Of a DNA stretch of 14,197 nucleotides, positions 696 to 14,113 are shown in pieces; within the stretch, counting starts at the first letter, position 1; every line of letters begins with the position of its first letter. The notes under the pieces are model-generated. The model ran no database searches and was not told the DNA's origin. It saw nothing but the letters and a program-made list of their open reading frames with translations. Source of the stretch: Ignavibacteriales bacterium. Lineage in GTDB: Bacteria > Bacteroidota > Ignavibacteria > Ignavibacteriales > Ignavibacteriaceae. The stretch covers positions 1-14,197 of the forward strand of contig JAGUXE010000305.1 in NCBI GenBank assembly GCA_020061995.1, given 5' to 3'. A program made the position numbers and the translations under genes.

Positions 696-1082
696 TTAAG
701 CTGAATGCCGATTTACCATATTGATAAAATCATCAAGAGTAAATGGTTTTGTCATTACATCGTTCATTCCGATTTTCATAAAGCCGTCTAAATCTTCTTT
801 CATAATATTTGCAGTCATTGCTATTATTTTCACACCATAATTCAAACTTTTGTTTTCATTCCTAATTAAACGAGTTGCTTCAAGGCCATCCATAACCGGC
901 ATATGAATATCCATAAATACAATATCATACTTATCTTTTCTGAAAGCAATTACGGCTTCTTCACCATTACTGACAATTGTAAAATCTATGGATATTTTTT
1001 GTAACAGACGCGCCAATAATTTTTGATTTATCGGATTATCTTCCGCGATCAAGACTTTAATATTATTAATTTCTGAATTCAC
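696..1082 (-). CDS. Stand-alone receiver-domain response regulator (CheY-like)
   Basis: A 128-residue protein consisting only of a receiver (REC) domain. Visible landmarks are the acidic pair Glu14-Asp15 in LIAEDNPINQKLL, the phospho-acceptor Asp58 in FMDIHMPVMDG (56-66), the switch Thr90 in AMTAN, and Lys112 in MTKPF. The EDNPINQ, DIHMPVMDG and AMTAN signatures are those of receivers in hybrid histidine kinases, which pass phosphate to Hpt domains, more than those of DNA-binding regulators; no output domain follows. The start is GTG at 1080-1082; an in-frame stop lies three codons upstream and the next Met is residue 57, so this start is forced even without a Shine-Dalgarno. It follows the phosphoglucose/phosphomannose isomerase gene by 28 bases, so it is probably the tail of that operon. 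The cognate kinase is not in the window. Confidence 0.9.
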   Translation of the reverse strand: MNSEINNIKVLIAEDNPINQKLLARLLQKISIDFTIVSNGEEAVIAFRKDKYDIVFMDIHMPVMDGLEATRLIRNENKSLNYGVKIIAMTANIMKEDLDGFMKIGMNDVMTKPFTLDDFINMVNRHSA

Positions 1083-1110
1083 AATAAATTATTGATTTGC
1101 TTTATATTTT

Positions 1111-2148
1111 TCATTCAACGAGTTTTTGCTTAAGTAAATGTATGTTGTCAATTTCACTTGGATCTTTCCCGCGTAGAATTGCAAGGTAGTATGAAATCCA
1201 ATCCGTTAAATAAATCAAATCTAAAATTCTTTCTTTGAAAGAATTTAATTGACTCTCTAATCTTATTATGTCAATTGATTTTTCTTTTATCAAATCCGTT
1301 GAGATGTTAAATCTCTTTTTAATTTGAGGATGATAGGAGGAATCTTCAATATTTACAACAACTGGATTGAAATGTGAATTGGAAACGGTTTCCCAACCGA
1401 CAATTTCATTATGATTTAATTCAGGATAATTATTACAAAAAGCATGAACCTTTGAATTCTCATTTAGCTGACACTTAAATCTATTACCTACGGCGTTAGT
1501 AACATCACTGACAGAATAAATAACGGGAATAAGTCCAATCATTTTTTTTGCAATAGAATATGCGAAATTTTCATCCACCGAATATTTAATTCCACTTTCT
1601 CGAATTTGATTAGTTATCTTTTTGACTAAGTTCGTTTGATCTTCAATGATCCAAAGCTCTTGAAATACTTTTAAAAGAGAAAAGAAACTTAACCCGAGTG
1701 AATACCTTGGTTGAAATCCTTTTTGGAGCAACACAACCGGAATACTATTTTTAATCGCAATATCAAGCATTTTTCCACCGGTTGTAACACAAATAATATT
1801 ACATTCCCTCCCGATTGCCTGATTAAGAACTTCTAAAGTTTCTTCTGTATTACCTGAATAAGATGATGCAATTAATAAACTATCCGAATTTATGTGAGAC
1901 GGGAGATTATAATTTCTATTGACAAAATATGGGAAATTTAATTCGTCCTGCAAAAAATTTTGCAGTAGATCCCCGCTTATTGCTGATCCGCCCAAACCAG
2001 TAATAGTAATAGAATTGAATTTTTTATTTTTATAAATTGATACATCAAATTCGTTTGACCATGCAAATTCGATTTGTTTATATGTATCAATCAAAACTGC
2101 AAATTGGTTTTCCGGATCATATTGATTAACAAAATTTTTAATTTCCAT
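1111..2148 (-). CDS. Bifunctional phosphoglucose/phosphomannose isomerase
   Basis: Cytosolic SIS-fold sugar isomerase, 345 residues, predicted to interconvert glucose-6-phosphate or mannose-6-phosphate with fructose-6-phosphate. The first SIS domain carries GLGGSAISGDLL (51-62) and the phosphosugar-binding SYSGNTEETLE (96-106). FQPRYSLG (145-152) carries the expected Arg148. In the second SIS domain, Glu230 in CQLNENSK and His246 in ELNHNEIVGWE (243-253) match the catalytic Glu and His of the archaeal-type bifunctional enzymes, and Lys340 near the C-terminus matches their conserved Lys. The sequence is unrelated to the classical 550-residue Pgi. The gene starts 6 bases after the enzyme I stop, with TAGGA overlapping that stop as its ribosome binding site, so it is translated with ptsI/ptsH. 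It links the HPr/enzyme I pair to glycolysis and to sugar-nucleotide synthesis. Whether both activities are present cannot be read from the sequence. Confidence 0.9.
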   Translation of the reverse strand: MEIKNFVNQYDPENQFAVLIDTYKQIEFAWSNEFDVSIYKNKKFNSITITGLGGSAISGDLLQNFLQDELNFPYFVNRNYNLPSHINSDSLLIASSYSGNTEETLEVLNQAIGRECNIICVTTGGKMLDIAIKNSIPVVLLQKGFQPRYSLGLSFFSLLKVFQELWIIEDQTNLVKKITNQIRESGIKYSVDENFAYSIAKKMIGLIPVIYSVSDVTNAVGNRFKCQLNENSKVHAFCNNYPELNHNEIVGWETVSNSHFNPVVVNIEDSSYHPQIKKRFNISTDLIKEKSIDIIRLESQLNSFKERILDLIYLTDWISYYLAILRGKDPSEIDNIHLLKQKLVE

Positions 2149-2154
2149 AATTTC

Positions 2155-3921
2155 CTACAAAATATTTCGTGTTCGCTGAATATTATTCTCTTTAAAGAAG
2201 AGCTCAATTCTTTTTAATATTTTCTCTTGTGAATTCAGTTGTAAACAATCGTTAGCAAGTTCTTTTGCTTTTTCATATGAGAAAGATCTTATTATTTTTT
2301 TTGCTGTTGGTAATACAGCCGGTGATAAACTAAAACTGTCAAGATTCAATCCGACTAATAAAGGAATAGCTAGAGTATCTGCAGCCATTTCACCACAAAT
2401 ACTTACTTCGCAGTTCGCTTTTTTTGAACCGTGTACAATATAATTTATTGTCCTGACTATAGCAGGATGAAACTCTTGATACAAATAGGCAACAACATCA
2501 TTTCCTCTATCCACCGCCATTATATATTGGATTAAATCGTTAGTTCCTATACTAACAAAATCAACTTGTTCAGCAAAATCTTGTGCCATAACGGCAGCCG
2601 AAGGAACTTCCACCATGATACCAACTTTGATGTTTTTATCAAATTGTATTTTTTCTATAGCAAGTTCTCTTTTAGATTCCTCAATCAAATTTTTAGAATC
2701 AATAATCTCCTGAATTGATGAAATCATTGGAATCATAAAAAGAATATTTTTATTAATACTTGCTTTTAGAACAGCACGAATTTGTTCCTTAAAGAGTTTA
2801 GGGTTTGCTAGTAACAACCTAACCCCGCGTAACCCTAGAAATGGATTAGCTTCTTCATGATCCAAGAATTTAACTTTATCCCCTCCGATGTCAAATGCTC
2901 TTATGGTTAGGGGTTGAGGATAAAGTCGTGTAGCAAGATTCGAATAAATCTTAGTTTGTTGATCTTCATCAGGGAACTCACCAAGTTCTTCAATTATTTG
3001 TTCAGTCCTATATAATCCTATTCCCTTTGCACGATTTGTTATTACTAGATGGACTTCACCTGATACATCCACATTTGCATAAAGATCAATTTCATGACCA
3101 TCGGTTGTCATCGCAGGTTTGTCATGCAACTCGGCAAGTGATGCATTAATTTCTTCAAGATGCTTTATTTTATTAGAATAAAATTCAATCTGCTTTTCAT
3201 TCGGATTTGTGAAAACTAAACCATGAAATCCATCAACAATAACATAATCATCTGATTTAATGATCTCTGTTATATTATGTATACCAAGTACTGCCGGTAA
3301 ATCGAGAGAACGAGCTAAAATTGCAGCGTGTGAAGTTAAACCTCCATAAACAGTTACGTATCCTTTTACATTAAATTTTGTAAATAGTATTGTATCAGCC
3401 GGAGTTATAATATCACTAATTACAACTACATCGTTTGATATTTTTGATTCCCATCTTCTTTTCTGAAGATTTTTTACAATCCTATTTTTAATATCGTCAA
3501 TGTCAAGCGCTCTTTCTTTCATATACGATTCGTGCGCCATAACCATAAGTTGTTGATATTTGGATATTTCATCATGAACGATTGATTCAGGTTGTCTTTT
3601 CTCTTTTCGAATACGATCTTCTATTGATGTAATTAATACAGGATCATCCAATATCATTAATTGTGCTTCAAAAATGGAAGCTCTTTTTTCCCCCATTTGA
3701 TCTTTCGCAACACTGAAAACTTTTAATAATTCTTTTTTTGATTTATTAAGAGATTCTCGGAATAATTCTATTGCGTAATCAACATCTTCAATTAAATCAT
3801 GGTTGATATTTAGAATTTCTTTTCTATAAATATATGCTTTACCTATGACAATGCCCGGTGCAGCGGCAATACCGGTGAGAACATTGTCTGAAGACTCAAT
3901 TATTTGTTTTAATCCTCTCAC
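2155..3921 (-). CDS. ptsI: Phosphoenolpyruvate-protein phosphotransferase (PTS enzyme I)
   Basis: Cytosolic enzyme that autophosphorylates from phosphoenolpyruvate and passes the phosphate to HPr. At 588 residues it is a little longer than E. coli PtsI and has no N-terminal GAF domain, so it is enzyme I rather than the nitrogen-branch PtsP. Domains in order: N-terminal GIAAAPGIVIGKAYIY (17-32); HPr-binding helices; the phosphohistidine domain with GGLTSHAAI and His198; and the PEP-binding barrel with YRTE (304-307), RAFDIGGDK (341-349), SIGTNDLIQYIMAVDRGN (457-474) and the acid Cys509 in ICGEMAAD. All active-site residues are intact. The start is GTG at 3919-3921, forming a GTGA overlap with the HPr stop, which suggests translational coupling. 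The N-terminus is about 10 residues longer than usual ahead of the GIAAAPG motif, so a later start cannot be excluded. No enzyme II gene is nearby. Confidence 0.95.
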   Translation of the reverse strand: MRGLKQIIESSDNVLTGIAAAPGIVIGKAYIYRKEILNINHDLIEDVDYAIELFRESLNKSKKELLKVFSVAKDQMGEKRASIFEAQLMILDDPVLITSIEDRIRKEKRQPESIVHDEISKYQQLMVMAHESYMKERALDIDDIKNRIVKNLQKRRWESKISNDVVVISDIITPADTILFTKFNVKGYVTVYGGLTSHAAILARSLDLPAVLGIHNITEIIKSDDYVIVDGFHGLVFTNPNEKQIEFYSNKIKHLEEINASLAELHDKPAMTTDGHEIDLYANVDVSGEVHLVITNRAKGIGLYRTEQIIEELGEFPDEDQQTKIYSNLATRLYPQPLTIRAFDIGGDKVKFLDHEEANPFLGLRGVRLLLANPKLFKEQIRAVLKASINKNILFMIPMISSIQEIIDSKNLIEESKRELAIEKIQFDKNIKVGIMVEVPSAAVMAQDFAEQVDFVSIGTNDLIQYIMAVDRGNDVVAYLYQEFHPAIVRTINYIVHGSKKANCEVSICGEMAADTLAIPLLVGLNLDSFSLSPAVLPTAKKIIRSFSYEKAKELANDCLQLNSQEKILKRIELFFKENNIQRTRNIL

Positions 3922-4184
3922 AATTCGTCAAAGCCTCGTTTAAAAAAATCGATAACATCAAAAGCTAATTTTTCTTCATCGGGTCCTTCAAATGTCAATG
4001 ATAATTCACTACCACTTTCAGCAGCCAAAGTCATAACTCCAATTATACTTTTTCCATTTATACGGAATCCATCTTTTGATATGAAAAACTCAGATTTATA
4101 TTTTGATGCAATTTTTACAATAGTTGCTGCGGGACGTGTATGTAATCCAGCATTGTTAACAATTTTAACTGTTTCTGCAATCAT
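3918..4184 (-). CDS. ptsH: Phosphocarrier protein HPr
   Basis: An 88-residue phosphocarrier of normal HPr length. His15 lies in NAGLHTRPAA (11-20), the site phosphorylated by enzyme I. Ser46 lies in GKSIIGVM (44-51), the site used by HPr kinase/phosphorylase in organisms that have that regulator, so this HPr can in principle be both a carrier and a regulatory switch. The ATG at 4182-4184 directly abuts the TAG of the polyprenyl synthase, and the stop overlaps the GTG of ptsI, so it is translated in a tightly coupled chain. The only Shine-Dalgarno-like sequence is a weak purine run inside the end of the preceding gene. With no sugar permease of the PTS type in the window, a purely regulatory role is plausible but inferred. 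Confidence 0.96.
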   Translation of the reverse strand: MIAETVKIVNNAGLHTRPAATIVKIASKYKSEFFISKDGFRINGKSIIGVMTLAAESGSELSLTFEGPDEEKLAFDVIDFFKRGFDEL

Positions 4185-8299: not shown

Positions 8300-9598
8300 A
8301 TGGAAAGAAAAAAACTTAACTTTTGGCAAATATGGAATATGAGTTTTGGGTTTTTAGGAATTCAGTTTGGTTTTGCATTACAAAATGCAAATGTGAGTAG
8401 AATTTTTGAAACTCTTGGTGCTGACATTGACGCAATTCCTATATTATGGATTGCCGCACCTGTAACAGGACTGCTTGTCCAACCGATTATCGGACACATG
8501 AGTGATAGAACGTGGAATCGTCTTGGCAGGCGTAGACCTTATTTTTTAATTGGAGCAATCTTAGCTTCGCTGGCACTATTAATTATGCCGAATTCACCAG
8601 TATTGTGGGTAGCTGCCGGTATGTTATGGGTATTAGATGCTTCAATAAATATTTCCATGGAACCATTCAGAGCGTTAGTTGCTGATTTGCTTCCTTCTCA
8701 ACAGCGTACAACCGGTTTCGCAGTACAAAGTTTCTTTATTGGAATCGGCGCTGTGGTAGCATCAGCATTGCCTTACATTTTTACTAATTGGTTCGGAATT
8801 GCTAATACTGCCCCCGAAGGAGAAATACCTCCTTCAGTTGTGTACTCATTTTATATCGGTGCATTTGCGTTTATTTCTGCAGTAGGTTGGACGGTGTTTC
8901 GCACAACAGAATATCCGCCGGAAAATTTGATTGAATTCGAAGAAAAGAAAAAACAGAGTGCCGGATTTTTTTTCGGTGTTAAAGAGATATTTGAAAATTT
9001 TGTTAAAATGCCTAAAACAATGATTCAATTGGCATTTGTCCAATTTTTTTCCTGGTTTGCGTTATTTGCTATGTGGATATATACAACGTCTGCAGTTACC
9101 CATCATATTTATGGGGCTACAGATGCAAATTCGGCACTATATAATGAAGGAGCAGATTGGGTTGGGGTATTGTTTGCTGTATATAATGGCTTTGCTGCTT
9201 TAACGGCATTTTTATTGCCATTAGTTGCTAAATACACAAGCAGAAAAATTGTTCATATGATTAGTCTTTTTATCGGAGGAATAGCGTTATCGTCTTTTTA
9301 CATAATCAAAGATCCACAAGTGTTGTTACTTTCCGAATTAGGAATTGGGCTTGCTTGGGCATCAATATTATCAATGCCTTACGCTATACTAGCCGGTTCA
9401 TTACCAAAAGATAAAATTGGTGTTTATATGGGAATTTTCAATTTCTTCATTGTAATTCCTCAAATAACCGCTGCCGCCATCTTGGGTTATGTCGTTAATA
9501 ATTTTTTCGGGAACGAAGCTATCTATGCTCTGATTCTTGGCGGTATCTCAATGTTTATAGCAGGGTTTTTGGTACTATTAGTCAAGGATGATGATTGA
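8300..9598 (+). CDS. MFS sugar transporter, SLC45/GPH-like (disaccharide-type cation symporter)
   Basis: A 432-residue, roughly 12-helix inner-membrane permease of the major facilitator superfamily. The loop after helix 2 has GHMSDRTWNRLGRRRP (65-80), the extended motif A with the Arg-Arg-Arg-Pro ending seen in SLC45/sucrose-type and glycoside:cation symporters. Helix 4 has DASINISMEPFRALVAD (113-129), and a charged central loop lies at about 201-240. Near the C-terminus is MGIFNFFIVIPQ. A GAAGG ribosome binding site at 8289-8293 supports the ATG at 8300. It is the only rightward gene here, diverging from the folate gene and converging on a sugar-uptake operon that carries a clear paralogue (11955-13244), with which it shares motif A, the helix 4 pattern and the MGIFN...VIPQ block. 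Maltose- or sucrose-like substrates are the family norm; the actual substrate is not determinable. Confidence 0.85.
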   Translation: MERKKLNFWQIWNMSFGFLGIQFGFALQNANVSRIFETLGADIDAIPILWIAAPVTGLLVQPIIGHMSDRTWNRLGRRRPYFLIGAILASLALLIMPNSPVLWVAAGMLWVLDASINISMEPFRALVADLLPSQQRTTGFAVQSFFIGIGAVVASALPYIFTNWFGIANTAPEGEIPPSVVYSFYIGAFAFISAVGWTVFRTTEYPPENLIEFEEKKKQSAGFFFGVKEIFENFVKMPKTMIQLAFVQFFSWFALFAMWIYTTSAVTHHIYGATDANSALYNEGADWVGVLFAVYNGFAALTAFLLPLVAKYTSRKIVHMISLFIGGIALSSFYIIKDPQVLLLSELGIGLAWASILSMPYAILAGSLPKDKIGVYMGIFNFFIVIPQITAAAILGYVVNNFFGNEAIYALILGGISMFIAGFLVLLVKDDD

Positions 9599-9649: not shown

Positions 9650-11929
9650 TCATCTATTCATAGATTTTGTGAGTTCAATTATTTTTTCACACATTAATGC
9701 GGATGAATATGCTGAGTACTTCATTCTTCTTTCATCAACACCTTTATAACAAACTATTGGTAAAGTCCATTCAAGAATTGCTAGTAAATATGGGATTAAA
9801 TCATATTCAAAAAGAGTAACTGTATTTGCATAATCACGTAGTTGACAGACTACATGATAAGCTTTTTCCACCATAGGATCATTACCGTTATAAGTGAATA
9901 CAGGTCTTTCGTTTAGTTTATCAGGAAAAAGTAAACCTTGTTCAAATTCCAGCAAATATTTTATATCCTCCTCCGATTCAATCCGAACATTTTCTATCCT
10001 AACTATCGGTTCTATCCTTGCAAAATCGGAGACTGCATTACGGATTTTTGTTTCAGAAAAGTCAATTACATAAATATTATTTGATTCATCAATTAAAATA
10101 TTTTGGAGATTTAAATCACCGTGTGAAATACATTTATACCACAACTTCGAATTATTTTGGTATTCCTTATACTTGTGTTTTAAGTACCAATATGGATTTA
10201 CTACATCTCTCTCAATTGCAGGTATATATATCTTTTCATCATCAGAAGAAATTCCTAAAACAGTTTGCGCTTCTTGCTCTATATGCGGAAAAAAGACTTT
10301 TGTCGGATCATGTTCTTTATAGGGATATATTGATTCCAACCGCGGTTGTCCATACCAAGGAAGTAAAACCCCGGTAACTATTTTCTTCAATAATTCAAGA
10401 AATTCCTCAATTGGTTTTTCTTGATAATATAATCTTAACCATCTTAATTTACTTTCCGGACCGGTAATCCCGACAAAATTGTATCTGACACCTCCACAAT
10501 TTCCGAAATAAAAACTTCCTAAAACGGAGACACTGTTATTTAGTATATATCTTTTAACAAACTCATTGTATCTTTCAACTTCTCTTTTAATTAAATCTAA
10601 ACTACCGAGTTTTAAAACTGTAGGAATTATTCTTTTCCCTGAGAAGTCAAATCCGTTGATTAAAAATGTTTTGGCAGAATACCCGCCCGTCAATAGTTTT
10701 ACATGAATCGAACTACAATCAGTGTAGATATTTCGCATTATTATTTCAAATTCATGACTCAAATCAACATCTTCATCCAACTCAATTTTAATTCTGTCAT
10801 CATTTGAATCAACAATTTTTTCAGGAATATACAACCAGATTTTTGCAGAATTCAATACTCTATCTGTTTCTAATTCACTTATTGAGGTGATAGTCTCCGT
10901 ACTAAGTATTGAGTTAAATACTTTATCTCGATCTGTTCCTTCAATGGTAGACAATCCTGATGAGCATATAATTTGATTTGCGGAGAATGATACATTCTGC
11001 AAATTCGTTTTTTTACTAATTGTATTATAAAGTTGAACTTGTGAAGCATCTTTCCATTTGCTTATTTCAAAGTGATCACAAGTTATTCCGTTTGAAATTA
11101 CTAATTTGTTTGGATCATCATTATTGGTCAAGATTAATGAAAATCCAAGAAGTCCGATATTCTGTTTTATTTGTCCTGAAATCAATAGCAAATCACGCAT
11201 TAAATCTTGAAGGGAAATTTCTTTATCTGAGGTAATTTCAATAAATGCTTCAGGTTTACCTACAATACTAACTGCAGATTTAATAAATAAATATGTTGAT
11301 GTAGGATCTTCCGTAAATAAATAATCGGTTTCTAATTTTTCTTCATATGGTTTGAAACCAATGAAATTATTAGTAGTGATTAAATCACCGGATGTATTTA
11401 GTGCTTGCTCAATTGTTGATGCAATTGCACCAATTCCAAATGAAAAACCGAGCTCGTTCAGATTTACCGAAGAAAACCCATTATTAACAGAATTATTTTT
11501 CCATATTTTTATTACATTTTGACCACCGCCAAATAATTCAACTTTATACGACCGAGTCCCAAGATCAATCTTAAATGCTTTACCTTCTGTTACGATCAAT
11601 TCATTCACATATTCTTTTGCAGATTCTATCGAATCTAAAATAACTAACTGCTTTGAAAGCCCTGTAATATCGAGCACTTGTTTGATTGAAGGAGCTAAAT
11701 TTATGTAAATGGATTTCCCTTTTAGCTTATGTAAAGATTTTTCTAACTGAAGTAAGGCGCGAATTCCTGCAGATGAAAGGTATGTAACTTTTGAAAAATC
11801 AATAACAGGAAGTTTAAGTGTTTCGAATTCAGTAAGTTTTTTTTCAAATTCGATACCACCGTTGCCGTCAAATCTTCCTTCTAAAAGAATTAGATTTAAA
11901 TTTTCGGTTTGCACAAAATTAATCAACAT
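9650..11929 (-). CDS. STAS domain fused to an aminoglycoside/choline-phosphotransferase-like kinase domain (759 residues)
   Basis: A large soluble protein with three parts and no visible signal peptide or membrane helix. Residues 1 to about 112 are a STAS (anti-sigma-antagonist type) domain: FDGNG near 20-24 and VTYLSSAGIRALLQL (48-62), where Ser53 aligns with the phosphorylated Ser58 of SpoIIAA. Residues about 113-400 are not recognised; FGIGAIAST (164-172) and the position between STAS and kinase faintly recall a decayed PP2C-like phosphatase, but the expected Asp-Gly metal motifs are absent. Residues about 405-759 look like a complete kinase fold: Gly-rich LLTGGYSAKTF (412-422), Lys440 in VLKLG, Glu450, the Brenner-type HGDLNLQN (603-610) with Asp605 and Asn610, and the metal motif IDFSE (622-626) with Asp623. 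The kinase part may belong to the ternary-complex-associated family (TCAD9), by memory only. AAGGAG precedes the ATG. It is the last gene of the sugar-transport operon, 25 bases after the permease. Confidence 0.75.
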   Translation of the reverse strand: MLINFVQTENLNLILLEGRFDGNGGIEFEKKLTEFETLKLPVIDFSKVTYLSSAGIRALLQLEKSLHKLKGKSIYINLAPSIKQVLDITGLSKQLVILDSIESAKEYVNELIVTEGKAFKIDLGTRSYKVELFGGGQNVIKIWKNNSVNNGFSSVNLNELGFSFGIGAIASTIEQALNTSGDLITTNNFIGFKPYEEKLETDYLFTEDPTSTYLFIKSAVSIVGKPEAFIEITSDKEISLQDLMRDLLLISGQIKQNIGLLGFSLILTNNDDPNKLVISNGITCDHFEISKWKDASQVQLYNTISKKTNLQNVSFSANQIICSSGLSTIEGTDRDKVFNSILSTETITSISELETDRVLNSAKIWLYIPEKIVDSNDDRIKIELDEDVDLSHEFEIIMRNIYTDCSSIHVKLLTGGYSAKTFLINGFDFSGKRIIPTVLKLGSLDLIKREVERYNEFVKRYILNNSVSVLGSFYFGNCGGVRYNFVGITGPESKLRWLRLYYQEKPIEEFLELLKKIVTGVLLPWYGQPRLESIYPYKEHDPTKVFFPHIEQEAQTVLGISSDDEKIYIPAIERDVVNPYWYLKHKYKEYQNNSKLWYKCISHGDLNLQNILIDESNNIYVIDFSETKIRNAVSDFARIEPIVRIENVRIESEEDIKYLLEFEQGLLFPDKLNERPVFTYNGNDPMVEKAYHVVCQLRDYANTVTLFEYDLIPYLLAILEWTLPIVCYKGVDERRMKYSAYSSALMCEKIIELTKSMNR

Positions 11930-11935
11930 AAAAAA

Positions 11936-11941
11936 CTCCTT
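11936..11941 (-). promoter_or_regulatory. Strong ribosome binding site of the STAS-kinase gene
   Basis: Read on the minus strand this is AAGGAG, six bases before the ATG at 11929-11927, in the 25-base gap after the transporter gene. It fixes the start and implies efficient translation of the last gene of the operon. Confidence 0.75.
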
Positions 11942-11954
11942 AATTTCCGTTGTA

Positions 11955-13244
11955 TTAGTGTGTCGAAACTTGTTTCGTCTGTTTGAAAGATGAAGAAGTC
12001 TCTTTTACAAATAACCATAAAAATGAAGAGATTGCTAAGGAAGCGCCACTTATTATAAAAATGATATTTTTATCCTCTGTGTTTAGGATGAAATACCCTA
12101 AAACCAAACTTACAATTAGTTGAGGTATTACCACAGATAGATTAAATATACCCATAAAAAAACCCATTCTGGTTTTATCTACTTTTTCAGACATAATAGC
12201 AAATGGTAAACTTACAATTGCCGCCCAACCGATACCAACAATTCCCATCAATAAATACAATTTTAATGGTGTGTCTCCAATAAAAACAATTAAAAAGTAC
12301 CCAAACGCCATTATCGCAACTGAGAGTAAGTGAGTTCTAATTCTACCGATTTTTTGCGAAACAGGCTCAAGAATAAAAGCGGGTAATAAAAAACCTATAG
12401 TATTCAATACGGCGAATGATATTGCAATTATTTGTCCTGATTGCAATGAAATAATATCTTGTGATGCATCAGGGCTAATGAGTTTTTGTTGAATAAAAGC
12501 AATAATGTAAACAAACATCGTTTGCACACCTATCCATGAAAAAGAATGAGCAAAATATATTTTGAATAATTCATTCCAATTAGTTTTGGTTTTACTTGAT
12601 ATTTTTTCTGACTCATCAATCGAGTTTACAAGTTCTTCTTCTTCTTTGATAAAAAACATTGGGACAATTGAGAAAAGCATTACAAGTATTACACCCACAT
12701 AAATAAGTATGTAATTTCCAAATGAAGCTCCAATTACATAAGCTAATACACCAAAGAAACCGGAAATAGTTTGCATCCAGGTATAACCTTTTGTTCGAGG
12801 ATTTCCATCAGGAGTAACGTCGGCTATTATAGATCTGGTGGGATTGAAGCTAATATTAATTGCAAGATCAAGAGTTAATGCAACACCTGTCGCAACTACA
12901 ATCAAACTACCAATTCCGAAAAAAGCACTGATGTGATGAATGTTAGGTAAGGCTAATAACATTAGAGCTGCAAGTGGACCGCCAATTAATACGAAAGGTC
13001 TTCTTCTACCACCCCAAAACCAAACTTTATCAGAGATTAAACCTATTATTACTTGTCCAAATATTCCCGCAAGTGGACCTGCAGCCCAAACAATTCCTAT
13101 TTCATGAATATCAAGTTTATACTGCGTGCTTAAAATCCAGCTAAGTGCAGAAATTTGTATTGATAGTGCAAACCCCATCGCAGTAGCTGGGAGGCTCAAT
13201 AATACATAAAAAGAATTAGTAAGTTTTTTTTGTATATCTAACAT
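11955..13244 (-). CDS. MFS sugar transporter, SLC45/GPH-like, paralogue of the one at 8300-9598
   Basis: A 429-residue inner-membrane permease with about 12 helices. The loop after helix 2 reads GLISDKVWFWGGRRRP (68-83), again motif A ending in Arg-Arg-Arg-Pro. Helix 4 has DLAINISFNPTRSIIAD (126-142), which lines up with the other transporter at Asp, Asn-Ile-Ser, Pro, Arg and Ala-Asp. The central acidic loop is at about 199-228 (EEEEL and following), and MGIFNLSVVIPQ lies near the C-terminus. It sits 38 bases after the MalG-like permease and 25 bases before the STAS-kinase gene on the same strand, so all are probably one transcript. An MFS symporter inside an ABC-type maltose operon may take up a related sugar, or may move a sugar the ABC system delivers or that is released inside the cell. 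Substrate unknown; the family assignment rests on motif A and the helix 4 pattern. Confidence 0.85.
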   Translation of the reverse strand: MLDIQKKLTNSFYVLLSLPATAMGFALSIQISALSWILSTQYKLDIHEIGIVWAAGPLAGIFGQVIIGLISDKVWFWGGRRRPFVLIGGPLAALMLLALPNIHHISAFFGIGSLIVVATGVALTLDLAINISFNPTRSIIADVTPDGNPRTKGYTWMQTISGFFGVLAYVIGASFGNYILIYVGVILVMLFSIVPMFFIKEEEELVNSIDESEKISSKTKTNWNELFKIYFAHSFSWIGVQTMFVYIIAFIQQKLISPDASQDIISLQSGQIIAISFAVLNTIGFLLPAFILEPVSQKIGRIRTHLLSVAIMAFGYFLIVFIGDTPLKLYLLMGIVGIGWAAIVSLPFAIMSEKVDKTRMGFFMGIFNLSVVIPQLIVSLVLGYFILNTEDKNIIFIISGASLAISSFLWLFVKETSSSFKQTKQVSTH

Positions 13245-13282: not shown

Positions 13283-14113
13283 CTATCCTTTAACACTTCC
13301 AAGAGTTAAACCGGAGACAAGCCATTTACTTAATATTACAAACAGTATAACAACAGGTATACTCACAATCAAAGAAGCAGCTGCATAAAGTCCCCATTCG
13401 GTAGACATATTACTTTCGAATGATTTTAACCCTAATGGTAAAGTATATAACGATGTATCCTGAAGGACTTGAGCCGCAACAATGTATTCTGACCAGGCTG
13501 TCATAAATGAAAATAATGCAGTAATAACAAGTGCCGGAGATGCTAAAGGTAATATAATTTTATAAAAAGATTGCCATTTCGTACAACCGTCAATTCTAGC
13601 ACTCTCCTCCAAAGTATATGGAATTGTATCATAATACCCTTTCATTTGCCAAACACAAAATGGTAATGCGGTTGCCGAGTAGACAATTATAATTCCGAGA
13701 TAACTATTCAATAATTCTAATTTTATCAACATTATATACATAGGCAGCAATAGCATTGTTGCAGGAAACATTTGAGTAGTTAATAATCCAAGCATACTTG
13801 CTTGCTTCCCAACAAACTTATATCGTGATAAAGCATATCCAGCCGTCGATGCCAGTGCAACTCCTGTAAATGTAACAGTTGCTGAAACAATCAAAGAATT
13901 CCATGTCCATAATAAAAATGGACGATTAGTGAATAATTCTATATACTGTCTGAAAGTTGCTTTATCCGGTATTATAGACAAATCAGTTGATAATAATTTA
14001 TCATCAGGTCTTATTGATATTGTAAATACATTTAATATCGGATATAGTGCAATTAGAGTAAAAAATATTAACACTAAATAGACTGAGATATTAATCAGAA
14101 GATTTTTTTTCAT
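13283..14113 (-). CDS. malG: ABC sugar transporter permease, MalG-like
   Basis: Inner-membrane permease of a carbohydrate-uptake (CUT1) ABC importer, 276 residues with six predicted helices (roughly 9-30, 72-95, 107-132, 138-157, 185-206, 243-266). The cytoplasmic EAA loop that docks the ATPase is at 169-191, EESARIDGCTKWQSFYKIILP, with Cys177 where Ala is usual. The C-terminus GLTLGSVKG closely resembles the GLTAGGVKG end of E. coli MalG, which is why maltose/maltodextrin is the favoured substrate class. The ATG at 14111-14113 lies 18 bases after the stop of the partner permease. The periplasmic binding protein and the ATPase are not in the window; they may lie upstream on the right or elsewhere. 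Confident as a CUT1 permease, less so on the exact sugar. Confidence 0.9.
   Translation of the reverse strand: MKKNLLINISVYLVLIFFTLIALYPILNVFTISIRPDDKLLSTDLSIIPDKATFRQYIELFTNRPFLLWTWNSLIVSATVTFTGVALASTAGYALSRYKFVGKQASMLGLLTTQMFPATMLLLPMYIMLIKLELLNSYLGIIIVYSATALPFCVWQMKGYYDTIPYTLEESARIDGCTKWQSFYKIILPLASPALVITALFSFMTAWSEYIVAAQVLQDTSLYTLPLGLKSFESNMSTEWGLYAAASLIVSIPVVILFVILSKWLVSGLTLGSVKG

Follow-up and report, generated by a model that had tools for sequence, protein, structure and literature searches.

A conserved protein joining a STAS domain to a TCAD9 kinase, a candidate partner-switching component that acts through an enzyme

The 14,197-nucleotide stretch of DNA analysed here (the window; contig JAGUXE010000305.1 of the Ignavibacteriales bacterium assembly GCA_020061995.1) encodes on its reverse strand, at 9650..11929, a 759-residue protein in which an N-terminal STAS domain and a C-terminal kinase domain of the TCAD9 family flank a middle domain whose predicted fold resembles that of acetolactate decarboxylase (ALDC). 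This three-domain protein is real and conserved, and as far as our searches go its architecture is undescribed, no paper on it having been found among open-licence papers. Partner switching is mostly known for freeing sigma factors. The present family has a built-in kinase with active-site residues that are invariant in the sample, and it occurs near RsbW and SpoIIE genes in groups that are not related. This speaks for an enzymatic output of the switch and suggests that a STAS switch can have an enzyme, rather than a gene-reading factor, as its direct target. A variant of partner switching is the best-supported reading, and we tentatively take the protein to be a partner-switching component with such an output.

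The open reading frame (ORF) begins with ATG and is preceded, six bases ahead, by the ribosome binding site AAGGAG (11936..11941, reverse strand). The original prediction took this strong site as a sign that the protein is made in quantity; the site is present, but a good ribosome binding site alone is no proof of high expression. A database search with the full protein returned 267 proteins at E ≤ 0.001, and the 120 listed (query first) are 708-811 residues long and all carry the Pfam pair STAS and TCAD9, so the ORF is not spurious. Where named, the listed homologues are called 'anti-anti-sigma factor', 'anti-sigma factor antagonist' or 'STAS domain-containing protein', and their source records include Ignavibacteriaceae, Bacteroidales, Cloacimonetes, Deltaproteobacteria, Sumerlaeota and Syntrophomonas. 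Conservation was counted in the alignment of these 120 rows, query among them. The top residue has a mean frequency of 0.64 in the kinase, against 0.48 in the STAS domain and 0.34 in the middle domain. The kinase is thus under the tightest constraint of the three, and this speaks for a fixed substrate. A structure model of the full chain has a predicted local distance difference test score (pLDDT) of 88.5 and a predicted template modelling score (pTM) of 0.72.

The STAS domain (residues 1-111; 11597..11929, reverse strand like all coordinates within this gene) is of the SpoIIAA/RsbV type by both fold and profile: a SpoIIAA-like fold is predicted with confidence, and the Pfam STAS match spans residues 38-104 (E 6.2e-9). 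Its phospho-acceptor position, Ser53 (codon 11771..11773), is Ser in every listed row and, in the set of 79 loci plus query, in 76 of the 76 rows having that column (4 gaps). STAS domains are normally acted on by GHKL kinases, and RsbW-type kinases are the usual STAS kinases. Here, as originally proposed, the Ser-bearing domain is joined to an apparently active kinase of APH fold and not GHKL, a conclusion now backed by Pfam, predicted folds and conserved residues. The kinase domain (residues 389-759; 9653..10765) matches Pfam TCAD9 (PF19974) with E 5.4e-35 and 121.8 bits against a cut-off of 40, and Pfam APH with E 9.4e-6 and 26.0 bits against 23.2; its fold, too, is predicted with confidence. 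The active-site set of Lys, Glu, Asp, Asn and Asp is complete, consisting of Lys440 (codon 10610..10612), Glu450 (10580..10582), Asp605 of the catalytic His603-Gly604-Asp605 motif (10115..10123), the following Asn610, and Asp623 of the DFSE motif (10061..10063). These five residues and Ser53, all named in the original prediction, are each identical in 120/120 rows, as are His603, Ser625, Glu626, Asn464, Asn465, Trp525 and Gln528; Gly604 is kept in 111. Judged by this conservation, the TCAD9 kinase is apparently active.

Genes beside homologues were examined in 80 loci from one scan of genome contigs, the best among 150 relatives, and neighbours beyond the window are known from these relatives' loci only. 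The longest ORFs served as gene calls in the loci, neighbouring genes were grouped into clusters, and Pfam was run on cluster representatives; these include a receiver-SpoIIE phosphatase, HATPase_c_2 proteins of 145 and 494 residues, a 109-residue STAS protein, GNAT, GPP34 and ABC_sub_bind. Counts were made with home-made profiles within four genes of the homologue, and five ABC-ATPase false matches were removed from the RsbW counts by eye from their P-loop sequence. SpoIIE occurs in 11 of the 80 loci, an RsbW-type HATPase in 14 (20 genes) and a STAS gene in 14; SpoIIE or RsbW is found in 17 and any of the three in 21. Where four genes are available to either side of the homologue, 6 of 37 loci have SpoIIE and 11 of 37 have RsbW. 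For the 624 kb examined, ~0.8 SpoIIE genes are expected (Poisson 1e-9, overstated because the loci are related), given 43 matches, a few below cut-off, in 33.1 Mb of eight carrier genomes, and ~1.1 RsbW genes (14 matches over cut-off in two genomes). The 17 loci carry the record labels Latescibacterota, Atribacteria, Verrucomicrobia, Akkermansia, BRC1, Sporotomaculum, Formimonas, Syntrophomonas and Bacteroidota. One of them, L064, has on one strand a STAS-middle gene, three ABC-transporter genes, the homologue, STAS, RsbW, STAS and SpoIIE; the order is SpoIIE-RsbW-STAS-homologue in L003 and homologue-SpoIIE-RsbW-STAS in L059, and L029 is a further example. The original prediction had staked itself on a kinase fold and on sugar-transport or regulatory genes recurring beside homologues, and on these points it was not refuted, since regulatory neighbours do recur. 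Its remark that no sigma or anti-sigma gene is visible in the window fits the 14 ORFs of 80 residues or more found there, none of which has a SpoIIE or HATPase domain, yet an RsbW-type kinase or a SpoIIE phosphatase lies close by in the 17 loci above.

Some of these neighbours have features of their own. A 97-residue STAS protein near the homologue in L025, L044, L053 and L064 has the phospho-site motif GSLGIR, not SSAGIR. Directly upstream of the homologue in L029 (7992-9476), and similarly in L027, L033, L038 and L067, lies a 493-494-residue protein with an RsbW-type HATPase domain (Pfam on L029 only) and a long further C-terminal part. L019 encodes, two genes from the homologue (13800-14966), a second, separate STAS-APH fusion of 388 residues that has no middle domain. 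Another candidate for a STAS-kinase protein without the middle domain, P0172, was rejected as an internal deletion in which most of the STAS domain is also gone.

The original prediction had STAS and kinase in one protein right and left residues 113-404 blank, where we find a separate domain at residues 114-388 (10766..11590). It has no Pfam match, and a profile search of PDB sequences was likewise empty for ALDC, while a fold search with the domain returned ALDC, PTD012 and PPC. Comparison with ALDC by sequence gave hhalign probabilities of 0.2 for the fused form and 2.8 for a kinase-less form described below, against 0.1-1.7 for decoys. We had considered a degenerate SpoIIE/PP2C phosphatase and dropped it because the fold search gave the three families above and hhalign against SpoIIE a probability of 0.2. 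In the columns of the ALDC metal site, which we take to be three His and a Glu, the window protein has, in a loose alignment, Ser316, Asn318, Glu352 and Asp182, so the His are absent.

The middle domain also occurs without the kinase. Its profile, run over the loci, found seven more proteins of 406-444 residues with a STAS domain and no kinase, and one further match in L059, which is the N-terminal part of the focal gene itself in truncated form. The fused and kinase-less middle domains align with an hhalign probability of 98.9 (E 2e-17). A search with one kinase-less protein returned 324 proteins, and 115 of the 120 listed are 404-414 residues long. All 120 rows retain the two STAS serines, and each of three His, an HxH pair and a third further along, is present in 119 rows, with one gap. 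Among the 120 listed kinase-fused rows, by contrast, all three His are present in 18, one or two in 23 and none in 79, the last group including the window protein and its nine closest relatives. The accompanying Glu follows the same division, with 18/18 against 3/79 for rows with three His and with none, although Fisher values for this covariation ignore kinship, which inflates them. An old metal site thus looks to have been lost in most kinase-fused members, and the His/Glu site of the kinase-less form offers a route to what the middle domain binds.

In the reading we favour, the STAS domain would be a receiver, with RsbW- and SpoIIE-type partners encoded elsewhere in the genome phosphorylating and dephosphorylating Ser53 in trans; this role is suggested by the SpoIIAA-like predicted fold, the invariant Ser53 and the recurrent RsbW/SpoIIE neighbours of homologues. 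Gating of the TCAD9 kinase may then depend on the phospho-state of Ser53 and perhaps also on a ligand bound by the ALDC-like domain, and the kinase would act on a substrate, either a small molecule or a protein. The existence of kinase-less STAS-middle proteins with Ser kept in all listed rows speaks in favour, as does a SpoIIE match within 4 kb of at least 5 of 11 such genes in the 295 genomes of a Bacteroidales carrier's order. The genome of L001, one of the 80 loci, contains elsewhere 14 SpoIIE matches (13 over cut-off) and 8 HATPase_c_2 matches over cut-off. A fuller version, which we regard as doubtful, has the STAS phospho-state read via a metabolite-sensing domain derived from an ALDC-like metalloenzyme and switching on an APH-type kinase, which would either produce a phosphorylated small molecule as messenger or mark a protein. 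If true, a STAS-gated APH kinase would be a widespread, undescribed branch of bacterial signalling with members in several phyla.

Several observations weigh against a partner-switching component. In 63 of the 80 loci, many of them short contigs, there is no SpoIIE or RsbW within four genes; L001 has no SpoIIE, RsbW or STAS gene in that range, and Pfam finds no SpoIIE or HATPase domain in the 14 window ORFs of 80 residues or more. Relatedness of the loci lowers the force of the Poisson values, and the home-made RsbW profile may differ in sensitivity from the Pfam model behind the expectation. SpoIIE is present in 7/7 carrier genomes against 213/288 others in the order of a Bacteroidales carrier, a difference that is not significant (p 0.125). 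At a pTM of 0.72, moreover, the placing of the domains relative to one another is uncertain.

The same data bear on whether the kinase acts within the switch itself, as the original prediction had allowed. TCAD9 might phosphorylate Ser53 of its own chain or of a dimer partner, forming a self-contained switch reset by a SpoIIE phosphatase. We consider this unlikely: RsbW-type kinases within four genes in 14/80 loci would be needless for a self-sufficient kinase, the STAS-middle unit with its Ser kept also exists without any kinase, and the strong conservation of the kinase (0.64) suggests a separate substrate site. Nothing we found favours self-phosphorylation over an outside kinase. Alternatively, TCAD9 could act in trans on another switch protein of the same network, whether a free STAS protein, a STAS-middle protein or an RsbW-type kinase. 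ORFs of 413-432 residues with the middle domain, taken to be kinase-less STAS-middle genes, are found in 11/295 genomes of the Bacteroidales carrier's order, in 4/7 carriers against 7/288 others (p 3.5e-5, uncorrected for kinship); the STAS genes near homologues in 14/80 loci fit as well. Most loci, however, have no such neighbours and kinship confounds the genome count, and we judge this alternative quite unlikely.

A further alternative is a conflict or defence effector, TCAD9 having been named for vWA-MoxR ternary systems. Passages of PMC10910872 associate TCAD9 with vWA-MoxR-VMAP and place it near CRISPR arrays, and PMC7159879, which does not use the name TCAD, reports a few active APH-type kinases among ternary-system effectors. 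Among open-licence papers containing the string 'TCAD9', only PMC10910872 concerns the domain; in the others, to judge by title, the letters stand for something else, in plants or elsewhere. The spread is patchy, with TCAD9 over cut-off in 4/149 genomes of the L001 genome's class and close homologues in 7/295 of the Bacteroidales carrier's order (the centre genome included in each). PADLOC, however, gave a single weak match (mad6, E 0.0042, 14 bits), the 14 window ORFs include no vWA or MoxR gene, and the neighbours seen to recur belong to signalling and transport, in loci that had no scan aimed at vWA, MoxR or defence genes. A defence role seems to us very improbable. Two of the three other TCAD9 carriers in the class have other flanking regions: in L113 (634-3309) and L114 (631-3249) TCAD9 lies in proteins of 873-892 residues whose other regions have no Pfam match and whose C-terminal part may resemble NUDT9-like hydrolases.

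The gene's surroundings in the window had suggested that TCAD9 phosphorylates an incoming sugar while the STAS domain reports sugar status. An MFS permease gene (11955..13244, reverse strand; Pfam MFS_1) lies upstream, 25 bases before the focal gene, preceded after a 38-base gap by a malG-like permease gene (13283..14113, reverse strand) whose best NCBIfam model is MalG at 178.9 bits, below the cut-off of 261. The operon-like order malG - permease - focal gene is nearly the same in L001, and the kinase fold is one shared with maltokinase and glucosamine kinase. Of the malF gene placed further upstream by the original prediction, only the last 21 codons are inside the window; the L001 counterpart is a 779-residue fusion of solute-binding protein and permease. 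The link is not supported across the family. A search through every ORF called in the 80 loci found homologues of MalG and both MFS permeases in L001 only; transporters of other kinds near homologues include ABC genes in neighbour clusters, BPD_transp_1 in L026 and MFS in L012 and L037. As the kinase residues are invariant in distant homologues while the sugar genes accompany 1/80 loci, a lineage-specific substrate is unlikely. The gene came to lie in a sugar-transport operon within the window's lineage, but homologues lend the sugar story no support, and a sugar-status kinase is, in our estimate, very unlikely.

Other features of the window and the loci may be recorded. The second MFS permease gene (8300-9598, forward strand) is related to the first (11955-13244, reverse strand), so that the two flank the focal gene on opposite strands, as in L001; both match sucrose/GPH symporter models weakly. 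At 696-4184 (reverse strand), genes for phosphotransferase system (PTS) enzyme I and HPr lie side by side, and those for a SIS-type phosphoglucose isomerase and a receiver protein come next; none of the 14 window ORFs encodes a PTS sugar permease. Beside homologues, a GNAT acetyltransferase of 286-314 residues is the immediate same-strand downstream gene in 7/80 loci (L029:11851-12720, L033, L035, L040, L067, L069 and L079), and L020 has a GNAT-histone-deacetylase-like fusion in that position. GPP34 genes, relatives of Golgi phosphoprotein 3, lie within two genes of the homologue in 4/80 loci (L002, L008, L022 with two copies, and L076), and the L076 ORF also matches the STAS profile.

Several known systems come close to the protein. 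SpoIIAA/RsbV anti-anti-sigma factors consist of one domain and act by freeing a sigma factor; the window protein has two domains more, one of them a kinase. It resembles the APH-like TCAD9 kinases linked with vWA-MoxR ternary systems in its TCAD9 match and retained catalytic residues, and differs from them in its fusion to STAS and middle domains and in the partner-switching genes recurrent near its homologues. With the kinase-less STAS-middle proteins (~406 residues, labelled anti-anti-sigma factor) it shares the Ser-bearing STAS domain and the middle domain, whereas they keep the three His of the likely metal site and have no kinase. The predicted fold of the middle domain is like that of ALDC, PTD012 and PPC, but profile support (0.2-2.8) and metal-site residues are lacking. 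Passages of PMC8256260 describe canonical partner switching together with non-canonical outputs: in SypA/SypE and BtrV/BtrW the output of the STAS phospho-switch need not be a known sigma factor, the STAS protein is small and separate, and a fused APH-type kinase goes unmentioned there. The same passages report all4160 of Anabaena, a STAS domain fused to a glycosyltransferase; both it and the window protein join STAS to an enzyme, but its enzyme is different and no middle domain is mentioned in them. The STAS-TCAD9 family is one in which an enzymatic output of partner switching can be tested.
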